From Acetobacteraceae bacterium (GTDB taxonomy: Bacteria; Pseudomonadota; Alphaproteobacteria; Acetobacterales; Acetobacteraceae): a DNA stretch of 64,000 nucleotides. The DNA is taken from NCBI GenBank assembly GCA_022842185.1, contig JALHQB010000012.1, forward strand, positions 1-64,000, in the 5' to 3' direction. Of this stretch, positions 29,802 through 56,313 are shown in pieces (within the stretch, counting starts at the first letter, position 1; each line of letters opens with the position of its first letter). A model generated the notes under the pieces. The model saw nothing but the letters and a program-made list of their open reading frames with translations, did not search any database and was not told the origin of the DNA. The translations under genes and the position numbers were made by a program.

Positions 29802-30605
29802 ATGACGATCGGCCAGTGGCTGAGTTTCAGGGGGCGCATCGGGCGCAAGACGTTCTGGCTTGGCTATGTCCTGCCGCTGTTCGTCGCCAGCATCGTCGCC
29901 AATATCCTCGACGTCTCGCTCGGGCTTGCACCGTCGCCCATGGCCGATGCGATGCCGGCCGATGCGTCGCAGGTCGGGCCGGTCAGCGGTCTGGTGTCGC
30001 TGCTCACGATCTGGCCGTCCCTGGCTGGCACTATCAAGCGACTGCACGACCGCGATCGGTCCGGCTGGTGGATCGGCGGCTTCTATCTGGCAGGGGCGGT
30101 GGCGGGGGTCGTCGCCTTCCTGGGCATGATGACCGCGCCTGCGAATGCGAGCGGCGCGGTGCTGATGGTGGTCGGTGCCGGGGCGGTGATGCTGGGCTAT
30201 GCGATCTGGCTGCTGGTGGAAACCGGCTTCCTGCGCGGTACCGTCGGTTCCAACCGCTTCGGTCCGGATCCGCTGAGCGGTGGCTATGGCGCTCCGCAAT
30301 GGCAGCAGCAGGGCATGCCCCCGCAGCAGTGGCCGCACCCCGGACAGCAGCCGCAACAATGGCAACAGCCCGGCCAGTGGCAGCAGCCGCAATGGCAGCC
30401 GCCGCCGCAGCAGGGTTGGCAGGCGCCGCCGCAAGGTTATCCGCCGCCGCAGCATCCTGGCGCGCCGCCGCCAGGCTATGGCCAACCCCCGCCCGGCTAC
30501 GGTCAGCAGCCACCACCGGGATATGGCCAGCCGCCGCCACAGCCGCCCGGCCAATGGGGCGGGCCTGGACAGGGCGGCAGCGTCCCGCCGGTGCGGCGGG
30601 ACTGA
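29802..30605 (+). CDS. DUF805 membrane protein with Gln/Pro/Gly-rich tail
   Basis: A 267-residue protein. Residues 1-150 are a DUF805 domain: SFRGRIGRKTFWLGYVLP, four membrane segments and the conserved IKRLHDRDRSGWW element, then the ETGFLRGTVGSNRFGPDPL motif. From residue about 160 on, the chain is a low-complexity tail of QQ, WQQPGQ, PPQGYPPPQ and repeated PPPGYGQ units, likely cytoplasmic and disordered. DUF805 proteins have no proven function, and such tails usually bind proteins or self-associate. The start at 29802 begins the domain (MTIGQWLSFRGRIGRK); the open frame upstream is unconserved. It converges with an amidase gene 31 bases on. Confidence 0.82.
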   Translation: MTIGQWLSFRGRIGRKTFWLGYVLPLFVASIVANILDVSLGLAPSPMADAMPADASQVGPVSGLVSLLTIWPSLAGTIKRLHDRDRSGWWIGGFYLAGAVAGVVAFLGMMTAPANASGAVLMVVGAGAVMLGYAIWLLVETGFLRGTVGSNRFGPDPLSGGYGAPQWQQQGMPPQQWPHPGQQPQQWQQPGQWQQPQWQPPPQQGWQAPPQGYPPPQHPGAPPPGYGQPPPGYGQQPPPGYGQPPPQPPGQWGGPGQGGSVPPVRRD

Positions 30606-32031: not shown

Positions 32032-32077
32032 GTCCGGTCCATGTCTCGTTGCCCGCGCAGGGCAGCATGCCCGGGCG

Positions 32078-32097
32078 CCCGCGCCAATGGGCGCGGG
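32078..32097 (-). terminator. GC-rich hairpin downstream of the ABC exporter gene
   Basis: CCCGCGCC (32078-32085) pairs with GGCGCGGG (32090-32097) around a four-base loop, 42 bases past the stop at 32139. A terminator or part of the amidase leader; no T-run. Confidence 0.35.
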
Positions 32098-32138
32098 GCG
32101 GACAGGGTCCGGTGTGTCGGCTCAGACCGGGCGGCCCG

Positions 32139-34022
32139 CTACAGGAAGCCGCCCGACTGGCGCTTCCACAGCGCGGCATAGGTGCCGCCGCGGTCCAGAA
32201 GCGCGGCGTGCGACCCCTGTTCCACCACGCGGCCATGATCCAGCACCACCAGGCGGTCCATGCTGGCGAGCGTCGACAGACGATGGGCGATGGCGATCAC
32301 CGTCTTGCCCTCCATCAGCCCGACGAGTTGTTCCTGGATGACCGCCTCCACTTCGGAATCGAGCGCGGAGGTCGCTTCGTCCAGAACCAGGATCGGTGCG
32401 TCCTTCAGCAGCACCCGGGCGATGGCGACGCGCTGGCGCTGCCCGCCGGACAGTTTCACGCCGCGCTCACCGACATGCGCGTCATACCCCGTGCGGCCAC
32501 GCCAGTCGGCAAGTACCACGATGAAATCATGCGCGGCGGCGCGATGCGCGGCGGCGACGATCTCCTCCTGCGAGGCTGCCGGCCGGCCGTATCGGATGTT
32601 GTCGCGGATCGACCGGTGCAGCAGTGCCGTGTCCTGCGTGACCACGCCGATCGCGCCGCGCAGCGATTCCTGCGTCACCGTCTCGATGTCCTGCCCGTCG
32701 ATCAGGATGCGCCCGGCCTCGGGAGAGAAGAAGCGCAGCAGCAGGTTCATCGCCGTCGTCTTGCCCGCACCGGAATGGCCGACCAGGCCGACACGTTCGC
32801 CCGGTGCGATGGACAGGTCGAAGTCGTTCAGCACGCCCCGCGCCTGGCCATAGGCGAAGCGGACGTGTTCGAAGCGAATCGCGCCCTTGGCGACCTGCAG
32901 CGGCCTGGCATCGGGCCGGTCGGGTGCGGTGGGCGGCACGGCGATGCTGCCCGATGCTTCCTGCACCACGCCGATATTCTCGAAGATGCCGGTGACGTTC
33001 AGCGCGACCCAGCCGGAGATGTTGGCGATCTGCCAGCCCATCGGCAGCGCGGCGGCCACCGTGGCCAGCCCGATCTCCCCCTGTTGCCAAAGCAGGATCG
33101 ACACGGCGCCAAGCGAGGTCAGCAGCAGCGCATTCAGTGTGGACAGCGCCAGGCCGTTCAGCGTGACCAGGCGCATCTGCCGCTGGAAGGCTTCGGTGAG
33201 CCGGGCGATGCCATCGCGGACGAAGCCGTCCTCATCCTCGGCGCGAGCGAACAGCTTGACGGTGAGGATGTTGGTGTAGCTGTCGACGATTCGCCCGGTC
33301 AGCAGGGACCGCGCTTCGGATGCGGCCTTCGACCGGTCGCGCATACGCGGCACAAGGAAGCGCAGCAGCACCAGATAGGCGCCGAACCACACCAGCACCG
33401 GCAGGGCCAGTCGGATATCCGACTGCGACAGCCAGATGACCGCGGCGCTGCCATAGACGAGGATGTACCAGACGGCATTGACGCCCTGCACCACGCTTTC
33501 GCGCACCGCGGGGCCGGCCTGCATCACGCGGGTGGCGATGCGGCCGGCGAAATCCTCCTGGAAGAAGGCCCAACCCTGGCGGACGACGTGGAAATGCGAT
33601 TGCCAGCGGATCAGGCTGGTGACGTTGGCGCTGATGCCCTGCTGCGTGACCAGGTTGTGCGCCGTGATCATCAGCGGTCGTGCGACCAGCAGCACGGCCG
33701 CCATGCCGGCCAGCTGCGGCCAGGCTTCGGCCAACAGGTGGTCCGGGCCGTGGGTGGTCAGCAGGCCGATGACCGTGCCGATGAAGATGGGGATCAGCGC
33801 ATCCAGCAACGCGACCGCCATGCCGAGCACGAACAGCAGCACGAAAAGCGCCTTCGCCTGGCGAATGAAGTACCAGTAGAAGGGCAGCAGCCCCGAGGGC
33901 GGCGGAGCGTCGGGCACATCCGTGCCGAACAGCTTGCTGGCCGGCGCGCCGGGCGGGGCCACGGGATCGACGATGGATTCGAAGGGGAGGCGCGGCATCC
34001 CTCCATCGACGCCCGCCGGCAT
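32139..34022 (-). CDS. ABC transporter, fused permease and ATP-binding domains (exporter)
   Basis: A 627-residue half-transporter of the MsbA/multidrug type. An N-terminal cytoplasmic stretch of about 60 residues precedes six membrane segments (to about 340); the nucleotide-binding domain has Walker A GHSGAGKTT, signature [16 protein letters not shown], Walker B ILVLDEATSALDS and the switch His in AIAHRLSTL. It exports lipids, drugs or peptides as a homodimer. Start is uncertain: ATG 34022 has no ribosome binding site, while ATG 33998 has GGAGGG placed too close. A degenerate F-family repeat sits in the 93 bases between it and the catalase gene. Substrate unknown. Confidence 0.87.
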   Translation of the reverse strand: MPAGVDGGMPRLPFESIVDPVAPPGAPASKLFGTDVPDAPPPSGLLPFYWYFIRQAKALFVLLFVLGMAVALLDALIPIFIGTVIGLLTTHGPDHLLAEAWPQLAGMAAVLLVARPLMITAHNLVTQQGISANVTSLIRWQSHFHVVRQGWAFFQEDFAGRIATRVMQAGPAVRESVVQGVNAVWYILVYGSAAVIWLSQSDIRLALPVLVWFGAYLVLLRFLVPRMRDRSKAASEARSLLTGRIVDSYTNILTVKLFARAEDEDGFVRDGIARLTEAFQRQMRLVTLNGLALSTLNALLLTSLGAVSILLWQQGEIGLATVAAALPMGWQIANISGWVALNVTGIFENIGVVQEASGSIAVPPTAPDRPDARPLQVAKGAIRFEHVRFAYGQARGVLNDFDLSIAPGERVGLVGHSGAGKTTAMNLLLRFFSPEAGRILIDGQDIETVTQESLRGAIGVVTQDTALLHRSIRDNIRYGRPAASQEEIVAAAHRAAAHDFIVVLADWRGRTGYDAHVGERGVKLSGGQRQRVAIARVLLKDAPILVLDEATSALDSEVEAVIQEQLVGLMEGKTVIAIAHRLSTLASMDRLVVLDHGRVVEQGSHAALLDRGGTYAALWKRQSGGFL

Positions 34023-50932: not shown

Positions 50933-52027
50933 CTAGGATGTTCCTGGCGTCAGCACATCCAGCAACTGCCCCGCCATCGCGTCCCAGTCATTGAGCGACC
51001 GCCCCGAATCCCGCGCCCCATCCGTCAGGACCGCGCGGCGGGACGGATCGAACATGGCGCCAAGGGCTTCCGCCAAGGCCTCGGCAGTCACCGTCCGCGC
51101 CACGATCCCGTCCAAGCCGTCGCGCACCTGCTCGGCCAGGCCGCCCACGGGCGTCACCACCACGGGGACGCCGAAACCATGTGCCAGCGGCGTGATGCCG
51201 CTCTGGCTCGCCTCCCGATACGGCAACACCACCGCGTCAGCTTCCGCGACCAGCCGCGCCATGTCTTCCTCCGCCAGCCACCCCGACCGCACCTCGACCC
51301 CCGGCAGTGCGGAAAGGCCCGGTGCAAGTGCCTCGGCATCGCCCTCACCAGCGACGAGGAGCCGCGCGCCGGGGCAGCGTGGCTGGACCAGGCGCCAGGC
51401 GTCACGCAGCAGGTCCAGGCCCTTATACGCCCGCATCCGTCCCACGCTGACGAACAACGGCGCCGCCCCGCCAGCCCGCGGTAGCCTCGCCACCGCAGGC
51501 AGCAGAGCGCCGAGCGCCAACCGATGCACCGGCAGCCCCGGCCGCCGGCGATGGATTCCCGCCGCCACGCTGTCCGAGAAGGCAATGGCCGATTCCGCGG
51601 CATCGAGTTCCCGCTCCAGCCGCCATTCCCACAGCAGACCCGGATCGCCGGGATGCGGTTCGGCATCGTGAACCATCGGCACATAGCGCAGGCCCGCGCC
51701 CTTGAGGGCCGGTGCGACCAACGGCGTCCACAGATGGGTCATCACCGAGACCACGACATCGGCACCGAAATCCCGCGCCTGGCGCCGCAGGCGGCGCGCC
51801 AGCCACGGCACGCGCGGCAGACCCGCGGCGAAGCCGAGCGCGTTGCGATAGGTCGGCACGGCATCGACCGGCAGACCGAGGGCGCGGATCGGCGCGATCA
51901 GATCCGATTGCGCCGACAGCGACAGCGCGACCGCGACGTCACCACGTCGTGCCAGTGCGGTTGCCAGAGCCAGGACCTGGTGACCGCCTCCTCCACGCCG
52001 CCCCCAATACCACATCAACATCCGCAT
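50933..52027 (-). CDS. Glycosyltransferase family 4 protein
   Basis: A 364-residue GT-B enzyme. The N-terminus has WYWGRRGGGGHQVLALATAL (nucleotide-sugar loop) and the donor half has APLFVSVGRMRAYKGLDLLR, GARLLVAGEGDAEALAP and the E-x7-E-like PYREASQSGITPLAHGFGVP, where the first glutamate is kept and the second position is a glycine-histidine, a small departure from the usual motif. It transfers a sugar from a nucleotide donor with retention. It runs on the minus strand with the 999-residue protein upstream, opposite to the rest of the locus. Confidence 0.85.
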   Translation of the reverse strand: MRMLMWYWGRRGGGGHQVLALATALARRGDVAVALSLSAQSDLIAPIRALGLPVDAVPTYRNALGFAAGLPRVPWLARRLRRQARDFGADVVVSVMTHLWTPLVAPALKGAGLRYVPMVHDAEPHPGDPGLLWEWRLERELDAAESAIAFSDSVAAGIHRRRPGLPVHRLALGALLPAVARLPRAGGAAPLFVSVGRMRAYKGLDLLRDAWRLVQPRCPGARLLVAGEGDAEALAPGLSALPGVEVRSGWLAEEDMARLVAEADAVVLPYREASQSGITPLAHGFGVPVVVTPVGGLAEQVRDGLDGIVARTVTAEALAEALGAMFDPSRRAVLTDGARDSGRSLNDWDAMAGQLLDVLTPGTS

Positions 52028-52080
52028 CGGTCAGCCGCCGAGGCCTGCGAGTGCGCGGCGCATGGTTGATGCGCTGCGCA

Positions 52081-55080
52081 TCAACCGCGGTGGCGCAGCC
52101 CGCTGCCGCGCAGCAGGCGAATGACGAGGGCGCGCAACCGCCAGAACGGGCTTTTCTTCATTGCCTCGATCTCGGCGAGCGCGCGCAACAATTCGCCGGA
52201 GGGCGGCGCCGGTGCTGCCGGACCGCCGCGGCCGCCGCCGACCTGCGCCAGAACTTCCGTCGTCAGGCCGGGATGGCGCTGCAGCCAGCCCTGAATTCCC
52301 GCCTGATAGGTGCGGAACTCGCGCCAGCCATCGCCGGGGCTGGCACGCCGACCCGCCGCGACATCGTCGATCGTCGCTCGGAAGGCGGCCAGAGCGTCGC
52401 GCGCCTGGGCATCGGTGGTGAAGCGCGCGGCCTGGGCAATCCCCGCCGCCACGCGCGCTGCGCGGGTGGCGGGATCGGACAGCGACAGGATCGCCGCGGC
52501 CGTGGCTTCGGCATTGTCGGGATCGACGAAGATCGCGGCATCGCCGCCCACTTCGATCAGCGACGAATTGGCGCAGGTCACCACCGGGCAGCCACAGGCC
52601 ATGGCTTCGAGCACCGGCATGCCAAAGCCTTCGTAGCGGGACGGATAGACCAAGGCCTGCGCGCCGGCATAGAGCAGGCGCAGTGCCGCATCATCGACCA
52701 TGACCCGCCGCATCGGCACCGATGGGGCCGCGGCGCGGTAGTCGCGTTCGATGTCGGCAAGCCCACCGACGCAGATGATCTCGAAGACGTGACCTTGCTG
52801 TGCGGCGAGTTCGGCGGCGCGGAAGGCGAGGATGCCGTTCTTGTAGCCGCCCGCCCCGCTGCGGTCCCCGACCATCAGCAGATAAGGCCGAGTGAGATTC
52901 AACGCGGTGCGGCCGGCAGCCAGTTCCGTCCCGGTCGGCGGGGTGAAGATCGGCGGCAGCCCGCAATAGGTCAGGGCGACCTTCTCCTCCGCCACCTCCG
53001 GAAACAGCCGGGCGAGGTCGCGGGCGGAAGACCGCGAGATCATCGCATGTCCCGCGGCGTGACGAATGGCGCGCGCCTTCTCCTGCCAGCCCTCATCGGA
53101 CAGGTCGAGGCCGATCACCTCGGGGATCATGTCGTAGCCGAAGAAGAACGACGGCGTGGCCGTCGGTGTCGAATAGTAGGTCGAGACGAACAGGTCTGCA
53201 CCGAGGTCGCGGCAGATACGTTCGAGATACAGGCTGTCGGCGCCGCAGCGGCCGTAGTCATGCGCGGCGATGGTGCGGTAGTGCACGCCCGGGATGCGGG
53301 GGGCGGTACCGGCACGGTCGAGCACGACGAAATGATCCGCCAGCCCGTCCTTCACCCATTCCTCCAGCATGCTGTGCCAGACCCGGCCGATGCCCGAGGA
53401 CAAATACTGCCAATAGACGCCATCGACGACGATGCGCGGGCTGGCGGGCAGCGGCCCCTGGTCCTTCACGCCGGTCGGCGTATCGAAGAACCAGGCACCG
53501 GCGGCGTCGATCCGCGCGATGGGTTCGACACGATGCGCGGCGGCATCGTCGAACATCGTCTTGTCGGTCACCCAGCCGAAGTAATCGGCGAGGAAACCCG
53601 ACTCCTTCTGCGCCAGCAATTCGCGCCAGCGCGCCGTCGCGCCGACGTAGCCGTAGTAGGTTTCCTTGAAGCCGAGTTGCGCTTCCGTGGCATAGGCGAA
53701 GTGCTGGAAGATGGCGCCGTGCGCTTCGGTCTCGTCATGCATGAACGGCGACAGGGTGGCGATGTTGACCGGTTCGCCCTCGGCCTGTGGGCGGACCAGC
53801 GTGGGGGGTTCATGGGCCGCCCAGTGGTCACCAGGGCGGAAGCGCCATGTCCGGAGCCATTCCTGCCCCGGATTCTGCGCATAGTTGTAGCGTGTGCTGA
53901 GCACCTGCGCGGGGCCGACGAAGTACCAGCACCAGTAATACGCCGCACCGCGATCCGGCTGTTCGATGAACAGCCGGCGCATCGCGCTCACCTGGTCCAC
54001 GGTCCACAGTTCATCCGAATCCATCTGCCACAGCAGGCATTCCTCGCGGATGGCGGGCAGCGGGGCGTTCACCATCTCCTTCTTGCCGTCCCAGAATTCG
54101 CCGGGCGGCTTGCGGTGGATGGTGACCTGGCCGGGGAAGCGGCGCGCCAGGTCGTCGAGGTACTCGCTGGTCCCGTCGTTGCTGCGGCCCTCGCGATGGA
54201 TGTCGTCGGTGACCCGGCCACCGCCTGCCGTGCTCCAGGCGGTGTCGTGGCGCAGTGCGGCGACGCCTTCGACCACATGCCAGTGCCAGCGGAACGGCAG
54301 TCGCGCCAGCATCGCCTCATGGTAGCGGATGAAGGGTTCACCGTTCAGCACGATGGTGAAGAAATGGACCGGCAGGTCCTCGGCGCGCGGGCGTCGGCGG
54401 AAGGCGGAAAAGCCGTTGCGCAGCGCCTGGTCGTCGGCAATCACCTCATAGTCCGGATTGGCGAGAAGCTGCTGGCGCGCGCGGAAGCATTTGAAGGTGT
54501 TGGTGTCGTCGAGCAGGATAAGCCTGGCGCCGATCACCTTGGCCAGTTCGACCTCCCCGGTGAATTCCGATCCGTCGATCAGCACCATGTCGAAGGTGTC
54601 GATGCCGCGTTCGGCCTTGATGCGTTCGATGGCGCCAGCCTCGACACCCGCATCGCGCACATAGGCGATGTCCTGCGCCAGCCAGCGCAGCACTTCCGGC
54701 AGGGGGAACTTCGCCAGGCCGGAGGCTTCCGTGTTGTAGAAGGTCGTCACCTCGGCCTCGGTGGGAAACTCATCCACCGCCACGGAAGACATGTTCGTGC
54801 AGTGCACGAAGGGCCGGTCGGCGTAGGTGGCGCGCAGCACTTCGAAGCGCGGCTTCGACACTTCGATGCAGTACAGGCTTGGGGTGCCGGGATTCTGCGT
54901 CAGGCCAGCGACGAAGGCTTCGGTGCTGCCGCCGCCGGCGGAAGACCCGATCTCCAGCACATGGCGCAGCGGTTCGCTCGCCGCGAGGTCGCGGATCAGC
55001 GCGTAGAAGGCATCGTCCTTGATCTCGGGTGCGATGATCTGGTCGAGATCGGAGGCCGCCACCGGCGTGTTGTCGGTCAT
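52081..55080 (-). CDS. Three-module glycosyltransferase (methyltransferase-like, GT2-like and GT4 modules)
   Basis: A 999-residue protein with three parts. Residues 30-230 resemble a class I methyltransferase or cephalosporin-hydroxylase-like fold (LRHVLEIGSSAGGGST, FDMVLIDGSEFTGEVEL). Residues 238-520 look like a GT-A/GT2-type domain (FFTIVLNGEPFIRYHEAMLA, DxD-like WQMDSDELW at 354-356). Residues 555-960 are a GT4 domain (VDGVYWQYLSSGIGRVWHSM, then SRYEGFGMPVLEAMACGCPV). The end carries MKKSPFWRLRALVIRLLR, a tail common at the end of large glycosyltransferases. It probably adds several residues to the exported glycan. The start lies in a 26-bp tandem triplication with three ATGs. Domain edges are approximate. 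Confidence 0.78.
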   Translation of the reverse strand: MTDNTPVAASDLDQIIAPEIKDDAFYALIRDLAASEPLRHVLEIGSSAGGGSTEAFVAGLTQNPGTPSLYCIEVSKPRFEVLRATYADRPFVHCTNMSSVAVDEFPTEAEVTTFYNTEASGLAKFPLPEVLRWLAQDIAYVRDAGVEAGAIERIKAERGIDTFDMVLIDGSEFTGEVELAKVIGARLILLDDTNTFKCFRARQQLLANPDYEVIADDQALRNGFSAFRRRPRAEDLPVHFFTIVLNGEPFIRYHEAMLARLPFRWHWHVVEGVAALRHDTAWSTAGGGRVTDDIHREGRSNDGTSEYLDDLARRFPGQVTIHRKPPGEFWDGKKEMVNAPLPAIREECLLWQMDSDELWTVDQVSAMRRLFIEQPDRGAAYYWCWYFVGPAQVLSTRYNYAQNPGQEWLRTWRFRPGDHWAAHEPPTLVRPQAEGEPVNIATLSPFMHDETEAHGAIFQHFAYATEAQLGFKETYYGYVGATARWRELLAQKESGFLADYFGWVTDKTMFDDAAAHRVEPIARIDAAGAWFFDTPTGVKDQGPLPASPRIVVDGVYWQYLSSGIGRVWHSMLEEWVKDGLADHFVVLDRAGTAPRIPGVHYRTIAAHDYGRCGADSLYLERICRDLGADLFVSTYYSTPTATPSFFFGYDMIPEVIGLDLSDEGWQEKARAIRHAAGHAMISRSSARDLARLFPEVAEEKVALTYCGLPPIFTPPTGTELAAGRTALNLTRPYLLMVGDRSGAGGYKNGILAFRAAELAAQQGHVFEIICVGGLADIERDYRAAAPSVPMRRVMVDDAALRLLYAGAQALVYPSRYEGFGMPVLEAMACGCPVVTCANSSLIEVGGDAAIFVDPDNAEATAAAILSLSDPATRAARVAAGIAQAARFTTDAQARDALAAFRATIDDVAAGRRASPGDGWREFRTYQAGIQGWLQRHPGLTTEVLAQVGGGRGGPAAPAPPSGELLRALAEIEAMKKSPFWRLRALVIRLLRGSGLRHRG

Positions 55081-55135
55081 CGTGCCACCGGCGTGTTCTT
55101 GATCATCGTGCCACCGGCATGTTCTTCGTCATCGT
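55058..55135. repeat. 26-bp tandem repeat, three copies, over a start codon
   Basis: Copies at 55058-55083, 55084-55109 and 55110-55135 share GCCACCGG-GTGTT--T--TCATCGT with few changes. On the minus strand each begins with an ATG (55080, 55106, 55132). Because 26 is not a multiple of three, the three starts lie in three frames, and only the innermost one (55080) opens the 999-residue protein; the others give MIKNTPVAR and MTKNMPVAR and then diverge. Confidence 0.8.
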
Positions 55136-55407
55136 CAGCTCCGGTGATGTCTCGGCGCCAGGGGCATGCGACGGCTTCGCCCCGCCCGACCGCCACGGTC
55201 CAGGGGCGCTAGATGACCCCTTGCGATGCGTCAAGCGCAAGCCAGCCGCGTGTTGCGAGACATTCTCGACTGGAGCGACAAGTTCCATCGAAGCGCGGCA
55301 CGCGTCCTTGGGTGTTGTGGCTTCGCCGCCCGATTTCGGCTTGGAAAGCCGATGCGAGGGTCTATGAACGGCCCGGCCCGATCCGGGCATGGATACCGAG
55401 GACCGGC
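55136..55407. other. Intergenic region between divergent glycosyltransferase genes
   Basis: Remainder of the 327-base gap between the starts at 55080 (minus) and 55408 (plus). I see no gene and no strong promoter boxes. It must carry the promoter for the leftward genes and possibly for the gmd group. Apart from the tandem repeat, nothing stands out. Confidence 0.4.
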
Positions 55408-56313
55408 ATGGCTATTGACCACGATGTGACAGCGGCGGAGACCCAGCCCCTGGTCAGTGTCATCACCGTTTGCCGGAACGCCGCCGCCACACTGGAGGCA
55501 TGCCTTGCCAGCGTCGCCGCCCAGACCTGGCCTCGCACCGAACACATCGTGATCGACGGCGCTTCGACCGACGGCACCGCAGCGATCATCGAACGCCACC
55601 GGACCCGCCTGGCGGTGGTCGTGTCCGAACCCGACCGCGGCCTGTATGATGCGATGAACAAGGGCGTGGCGCGCGCCGGCGGGGAGTTCGTCATCTTCCT
55701 CAATGCCGATGACGTCTTCGCCGGCCCCGACGCACTGCGGGACGCGATGCGCGACATCGCCCGCCAGCCCGATGGCGATGTCTATTACGGCGCGATCGAG
55801 GTGGTGATGGGCGCGGCCCGACACTGCCACACCCCGCCCCCACCGGATCAGGCGCTGGAGGAAATGGTGCTCGGCTGCCTGCCCCACCAGGCGACGCTGG
55901 CGCGCCGGGCGGTATTCGAGCGTACCGGCCTGTTCGACCTGCGCTGGCGCCGCCACGCCGACTACGACTGGTGGCTCAAGGTCCTGGCGGATCCGACGAT
56001 TCGGCTGCGGCAGATCGGCACCACCGTGGCCTGTTTCGCCCTCGGCGGTGCGTCATCAGACCTGGCCAAGGGACAGCCGGAGGTCTTCGCCATCCAGAAT
56101 GCCTCCCCGCTGTATGACAACCCGGAATGGAGCCGGCGGCGGATCGAGATGTTGCAAAAGGCCTGGCTGGCAGCGCGGATCGAGGCCGCCGACCTGCGTG
56201 AGGCCACGGGCCGGCCGCCGGCCCTATCCTGGAAGGGTCGGGTCGCGGCCGCGTTACCGGCACCCCTGCTGCGGCTGGCCCTGGCTGCGAAGCGTCGCCT
56301 GCCGGGGGCTTGA
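55408..56313 (+). CDS. Glycosyltransferase family 2 protein
   Basis: A 301-residue GT-A enzyme. [20 protein letters not shown] opens the Rossmann half, [16 protein letters not shown] follows, and the DxD motif is [10 protein letters not shown]. The [20 protein letters not shown] region and basic end ([15 protein letters not shown]) are typical. The start at 55408 gives [14 protein letters not shown] just before the domain; the open frame before it is unconserved. First of the rightward sugar genes, 112 bases before gmd. It shares the [17 protein letters not shown] pattern with the GT2 at 60083, so the two are close relatives. Confidence 0.9.

Follow-up and report, generated by a model that had tools for sequence, protein, structure and literature searches.

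A 26-bp triplication across the start codon of a probable surface-glycan glycosyltransferase gene, read as a candidate leader of two chained mini-cistrons

The DNA analyzed here, referred to as the window, is a 64,000-nucleotide stretch of contig JALHQB010000012.1 from an Acetobacteraceae bacterium (assembly GCA_022842185.1). Its minus strand carries a gene for a 999-aa glycosyltransferase that starts in the last of three tandem 26-bp units, each of which has its own ATG. The features discussed below are listed in the order in which the minus strand is read.

55206-55234, minus strand: probable promoter, with TTGACG (55234-55229), a 17-nt spacer and TAGCGC (55211-55206); proposed from a shared motif.
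55135-55142, minus strand: Shine-Dalgarno (SD) sequence GGAG (55142-55139) followed by CTGA, ahead of unit 1; anti-SD duplex of -8.5 kcal/mol.
55110-55135, minus strand: repeat unit 1, ATG at 55132; from TRF and the sequence.
55103-55132, minus strand: mini-ORF 1, MTKNMPVAR, stop TGA at 55105-55103; from the sequence, its translation putative.
55084-55109, minus strand: repeat unit 2, ATG at 55106; from TRF and the sequence.
55103-55106, minus strand: ATGA overlap between the mini-ORF 1 stop and the mini-ORF 2 start; from the sequence.
55077-55106, minus strand: mini-ORF 2, MIKNTPVAR, stop TGA at 55079-55077; from the sequence, its translation putative.
55058-55083, minus strand: repeat unit 3, ATG at 55080, the glycosyltransferase start; from TRF, the sequence and the ortholog alignment.
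55077-55080, minus strand: ATGA overlap between the mini-ORF 2 stop and the glycosyltransferase start; from the sequence.
52081-55080, minus strand: 999-aa protein with a methyltransferase-like N-terminus (by eye), a middle part and a C-terminal GT4 domain (Pfam Glycos_transf_1, residues 729-869).
50933-52027, minus strand: next gene of the probable transcription unit, a GT4 glycosyltransferase (Pfam).

At an E-value of 0.001, Pfam recognized only a C-terminal GT4-type region (residues 724-896) in the 999-aa protein and gave no match to residues 1-723, and the 46 PDB matches to the protein all fell within residues 665-910. By eye, the N-terminal 230 residues resemble a class I methyltransferase, with the motif LEIGSSAGGGST. 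Six of the 35 genomes of the genus have this N-terminal module, which spans about residues 1-230, whereas in G001, G011, G013, G021 and G032 the best match starts only at residue 225-234; the module thus seems to have been gained or lost as a unit. A GT2 gene (55213-56313) diverges from the 999-aa gene. It is listed from an ATG at 55213, and its glycosyltransferase match begins at listed residue 82; the ATG at 55408 looks like the more probable GT2 start, which would leave about 330 bp between the divergent starts. Together with neighboring dTDP-rhamnose-like and GDP-sugar-like enzymes (recognized by eye), the GT4 and GT2 genes look like a surface-polysaccharide cluster. Two further reading frames were set aside, one open from the GTG at 55196 for want of support and an antisense plus-strand ORF at 51712-55212 (1166 aa) as a shadow frame of GC-rich sequence.

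TRF run on the window returned an array of 26-bp period, 3.0 copies and 88% matches at 55058-55135, exactly where a preliminary description had placed three 26-bp units, and its score of 121 was the highest among the 21 TRF rows. The best score across 60 simulated 64-kb windows (order-3 Markov) was 89, and arrays with a period of at least 20 and at least 2.5 copies arose in 2 of these 60 windows. The triplication is beyond chance, and an assembly artefact is unlikely because the copies differ. Read along the minus strand, the order is promoter-like site, leader, GGAGCTG, ACGATGACGAAGAACATGCCGGTGGC, ACGATGATCAAGAACACGCCGGTGGC, ACGATGACCGACAACACGCCGGTGGC and the remainder of the 999-aa gene. In 458,855 bases of this genome, counting the window, TRF listed eight rows with a period of at least 15 and a score of at least 70, and of these the 26-bp array alone overlapped the 5' end of a called gene; genes were called crudely, and none was called near four of the eight rows. 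In 1,258,855 bases from three genomes of the genus, start-spanning tandem duplications were found in 2 of 849 crudely called genes as against 0 of 3,664 in-gene control positions, the former count resting on three matches, two of them within the 55058-55135 array. The other of the two genes is a 408-aa ORF (G010:C1:43521, L095) with a perfect 16-bp tandem duplication across its start; 16 is 1 modulo 3 and the start reads ATGC, so no coupled mini-ORF of the ATGA kind arises there. Other repeats were noted as well. In the window, imperfect repeats of 15-42 bp cluster at 30321-30539, perhaps a Q/P/G-rich coding stretch (by eye). Elsewhere in the genome, a 57-bp tandem repeat (9.4 copies, 96% matches; G000:C1:32085-32614) sits within a minus-strand ORF called at 32075-32653 and is a likelier candidate for recent variation in unit number than the 26-bp array.

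The preliminary description had also stated that the units carry three ATGs in three frames, and the minus-strand ATGs at 55132, 55106 and 55080 indeed occupy one frame each; a fourth ATG, at 55120 inside unit 1, shares the frame of the unit 1 ATG. What that first reading missed is that 26 is 27 minus one and that an A follows the ATG of every unit. The frame of one ATG reaches the next one base out, where ATGA supplies a TGA, and each earlier unit is therefore a nine-codon mini-ORF whose stop overlaps the next ATG. At both junctions (55106-55103 and 55080-55077), the spacing between a stop and the start that follows falls in the range of about -4 to +3 nt. The unit 3 ATG aligns with the ortholog starts and is the sole ATG, GTG or TTG in the open frame between the upstream stop and 55080. 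The peptide sequences are not conserved, as non-synonymous changes separate mini-ORF 1 from mini-ORF 2. Such chaining is a favorable accident and no proof of design. Of 331 crudely called ATG starts in the sampled sequence that have an SD-like motif, 137 (0.41) read ATGA, and multiplying this fraction by one third for length gives about 0.14, so that roughly 1 in 7 random start duplications would yield ATGA coupling. Upstream ORFs ending at a start are common in GC-rich sequence; in G020 and G004, upstream frames end at the start without any repeat.

The units differ pairwise at 3 (units 1 and 2), 3 (units 2 and 3) and 4 (units 1 and 3) of 26 sites, which makes a recent triplication improbable; at a shift of 26, no perfect match is longer than 16 bp. 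Five columns of the unit vary (8, 9, 10, 12 and 17), all within positions 8-17. There is no variation in columns 18-26 and 1-7, where the SD-like GGTGGC, the start codon and the overlapping stop are located, and GCCGGTGGC plus ACGATGA is accordingly the same in all three units. The chance of such a split is 0.004 for GCCGGTGGC plus ACGATGA and 0.02 for a narrower 13-nt element, GGTGGCACG plus ATGA, both divisions having been picked after the data were viewed. The gene downstream is intact and constrained: its synonymous sites differ by 45-50% (pS) from four orthologs, and dN/dS is 0.20-0.26 against these four, compared with 0.28-0.38 among the four themselves. The gene having been kept intact, some route to the unit 3 ATG presumably works.

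The N-terminal part of the gene occurs in 6 of the 35 genomes of the genus, the source genome included, and in a seventh, G319, from another genus of the family; the start comparison comprised the six ortholog starts of G020, G010, G004, G006, G016 and G319. No tandem copy was found at any of the six, with no TRF row scoring 30 or more within -200 to +150 (350 bases), and the best 20-nt self-match over the start reached 10-13 of 20 in the orthologs versus 19 in the window. A search of the 35 genomes for the repeat pattern with up to 3 mismatches found it in one, as two overlapping matches that both lie in the 55058-55135 array, and nowhere else in that genome or in the other 34. Wider searches defined the reach of this comparison. 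In the family, 12 of 397 sampled genomes matched, with the N-terminus covered only in G000, G010, G020, G004 and G319 and the other seven unused. The genome_contigs search gave 20 loci, of which four belong to the genus group and 16 (48-53% identity, other lineages by title) were kept out of the start comparison. A pattern search of viral contigs gave 284 matching stretches, not one of which encodes a relative, and of the 25 plasmid records that matched by blastn none covers 80% of the query. One further candidate copy, at G000:C2:89569-89616 (84% over 46 bp, E 8.7e-5), was rejected: it matches the leader upstream of the repeat and not the repeat, and is probably a chance match in GC-rich surroundings where nothing promoter- or start-like was seen by eye. 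The best reading of these alignments is that the triplication of the initiation region is lineage-specific.

A motif picked by eye, TTGAC[G/C]-N17-TA, lies upstream of 7 of 7 orthologous starts, with TAGCGC in 4 of the 7; a generic sigma-70 consensus scan reported no promoter at the TTGACG-N17-TAGCGC site. A second TTGAC, lacking the TA, occurs in G004 and in G319. In this genome TTGAC precedes the unit 1 ATG by 102 nt and the unit 3 ATG by 154 nt, and in the orthologs the distance to the start is 103 (G020), 82 (G010), 107 (G004), 102 (G006), 108 (G016) and 125 nt (G319). Because its distance falls in the range of the orthologs, the unit 1 ATG probably occupies the ancestral start position, and the true gene start now lies 52 nt downstream of it.

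The ribosome entry signals were compared by their pairing with a generic anti-SD string rather than that of this genome: the GGAG of unit 1 gave a duplex of -8.5 kcal/mol versus -6.5 for the GGTG of units 2 and 3, making GGAG the best of the three pairings. GGAG lies 7-10 nt ahead of the unit 1 ATG, and the upstream ORF thus has a plausible initiation site of its own. Because the best SD stands ahead of unit 1, and a ribosome that starts there is out of frame with the glycosyltransferase unless it reinitiates, the array likely affects ribosome access to the gene, and to this extent the preliminary description is supported. Predicted accessibility (mean unpaired probability of 0.51, 0.36 and 0.43 for units 1, 2 and 3) did not separate the starts. 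The leader, whose predicted fold has a z-score of +1.30 with 179 of 200 shuffles folding at least as well, is not unusually structured by this model. No Rfam match was found up to E 1 in 54800-55600, and two terminator-like plus-strand matches (55081-55095 and 55107-55121; 0.4 expected) were discarded as one array-repeated motif with an interrupted T tail.

We consider it somewhat better than an even chance (a probability of about 0.55) that a lineage-specific triplication of the start gave rise to a leader of two mini-cistrons that is read by termination and reinitiation. The 26 bp around the start codon (ACG, the ATG, the first codons and a terminal GGTGGC) would have been tandemly triplicated, each terminal GGTGGC possibly serving as a weak SD for the copy that follows. 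Transcription would proceed from the putative ancestral promoter, and ribosomes would bind the ancestral SD, which may now direct entry at unit 1. They would read nine codons, stop at the TGA within ATGA and reinitiate at the overlapping ATG; the second mini-ORF would repeat the stop and reinitiation, after which the 999-aa protein would begin at unit 3. The duplication would have been tolerated on account of a length of 2 modulo 3 and an A after the ATG, which together would couple each copy to the next. As part of this explanation, we infer a moderate change in expression from the leader. Published coupling data make reinitiation at the ATGA overlaps plausible. According to PMC12548453, early studies for the most part put peak coupling efficiency at spacings of -4 to +3 nt. 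PMC6728339 gives strict translational coupling in 13 of 14 tested gene pairs, although of five E. coli pairs it grades three as strongly coupled, menDH as coupled at about 60% and bioBF as uncoupled.

A possible, more tentative explanation is that the array is an inert relic, an old accident in which ribosomes bind directly at unit 3 by way of GGTGGC and the upstream ATGs are nearly idle. The GGTG ahead of units 2 and 3 lies at a workable distance, and the -6.5 kcal/mol of unit 3 falls inside the -3.8 to -10.3 kcal/mol found across the six orthologs. Occurrence of the repeat in a single one of the 35 congeneric genomes agrees with a relic, and as the leader is not unusually folded and predicted accessibility does not set one start apart from another, unit 3 could be open and direct entry there is conceivable. 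However, unit 1 is favored both by having the strongest SD and by its distance from the promoter-like site, and the variable sites avoid the part that contains the start, the stop and the SD-like element. An unlikely elaboration of the termination-reinitiation reading is that unit number acts as a translation rheostat, with each 26-bp unit adding one obligatory reinitiation step so that output is graded and the frame stays unbroken; tuning of this kind by copy number could occur because the unit is 2 modulo 3 and an A follows its ATG.

It is quite improbable that the array is a set of repeated sites at which a regulatory protein or small RNA binds over the start region. The ACGATGA and GCCGGTGGC blocks are invariant across the three units, as a binding site might be, but start, stop and SD-like signals explain this equally well; moreover, no inverted symmetry was seen by eye, the Rfam search up to E 1 and the comparison of the leader fold with shuffles gave no support, and the pattern stands nowhere else in the genome at up to 3 mismatches.

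The preliminary description held that gain or loss of units would shift the start choice of the gene and that slippage could thereby produce phase variation. In favor of such switching or grading of glycosyltransferase expression are the placement of a tandem array where a probable surface-glycan gene begins and a unit number that differs between species (one at the six ortholog starts, three here). However, whole-unit gain or loss cannot shift the frame of the gene because the last unit always supplies the start, the array ending within codon 8; its effect would at most be graded, through more or fewer rounds of reinitiation. The promoter-like site lies outside the array, so that units switch neither frame nor promoter. 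In addition, frequent expansion and contraction would tend to homogenize the copies, yet these number just three and are not the near-identical units prone to slippage, and their divergence, with a perfect match of at most 16 bp, fits an old array better than a frequently slipping one. Slippage-driven phase variation is thus the least probable of the explanations; of the earlier reading, the three frames and the likely effect on ribosome access are supported and on/off phase variation is not.

Contingency loci achieve phase variation through tandem repeats, and the present array shares with them a tandem repeat located where a probable glycan gene begins, but unlike them its copies are imperfect and whole units do not switch the frame. 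The MIRUs of mycobacteria are dispersed repeats found at many genome sites, whereas this array occupies one site and the 34 other genomes of the genus have no match. According to a passage in PMC12548453, MIRUs are apparently mobile, repetitive and present in many mycobacteria, and appear to insert at start codons, where a small ORF becomes coupled at -4 nt at a likely low cost for expression. The likeness to our array, a short repeat at a start codon with a small ORF -4 nt from the gene, is one of arrangement only; here the repeat stands at one site in one genome of an alphaproteobacterium, and the 26-bp unit was copied from the gene itself. In bicistronic design (BCD) cassettes and natural short upstream ORFs, as outlined in PMC12548453 and PMC5995908, a leader cistron passes ribosomes to the gene, while the present arrangement, in contrast to BCD, is natural and repeat-derived, with two leader cistrons in series. 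By analogy, the best reading is that the array works like bicistronic designs and MIRU insertions yet is no MIRU; the MIRU is the nearest natural precedent found and the bicistronic design the nearest engineered one. The -4 nt stop/start overlap, seen here at both junctions, is also that of ATGA termination-reinitiation coupling and the commonest spacing of closely spaced genes in the portions of PMC12548453 and PMC6728339 that treat it. The coupled pairs described there are mostly two full genes, however, whereas here two nine-codon frames derive from the gene's own start and coupling is predicted. The TAACTGA direct repeats described in PMC4679880 likewise adjoin start codons and are proposed to act in translation, but they are 7-bp units of unrelated sequence that form 169 sets in a single genome, usually a few nucleotides ahead of the start. 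In the literature searched, judged largely by abstracts, no start-spanning tandem duplication with chained ATGA mini-ORFs was recognized, the MIRU passage aside, and no paper was found on Roseomonas together with phase variation. Within that literature, a coupled leader is of a known kind, and two mini-cistrons made from a triplicated start of the gene itself were not found described.

The array is an unusual arrangement of ordinary parts with no sign of an on/off switch, and it cautions against taking every tandem repeat at a glycan gene for a phase switch. It suggests that a gene may survive duplication of its start codon when the repeated unit has a length of 2 modulo 3 and the start is ATGA, since each copy is then a mini-cistron coupled to the next. 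A single such event could be enough to create leader ORFs and natural counterparts of bicistronic designs. Across genomes, start-spanning tandem duplications that survive should favor lengths of 0 or 2 modulo 3.
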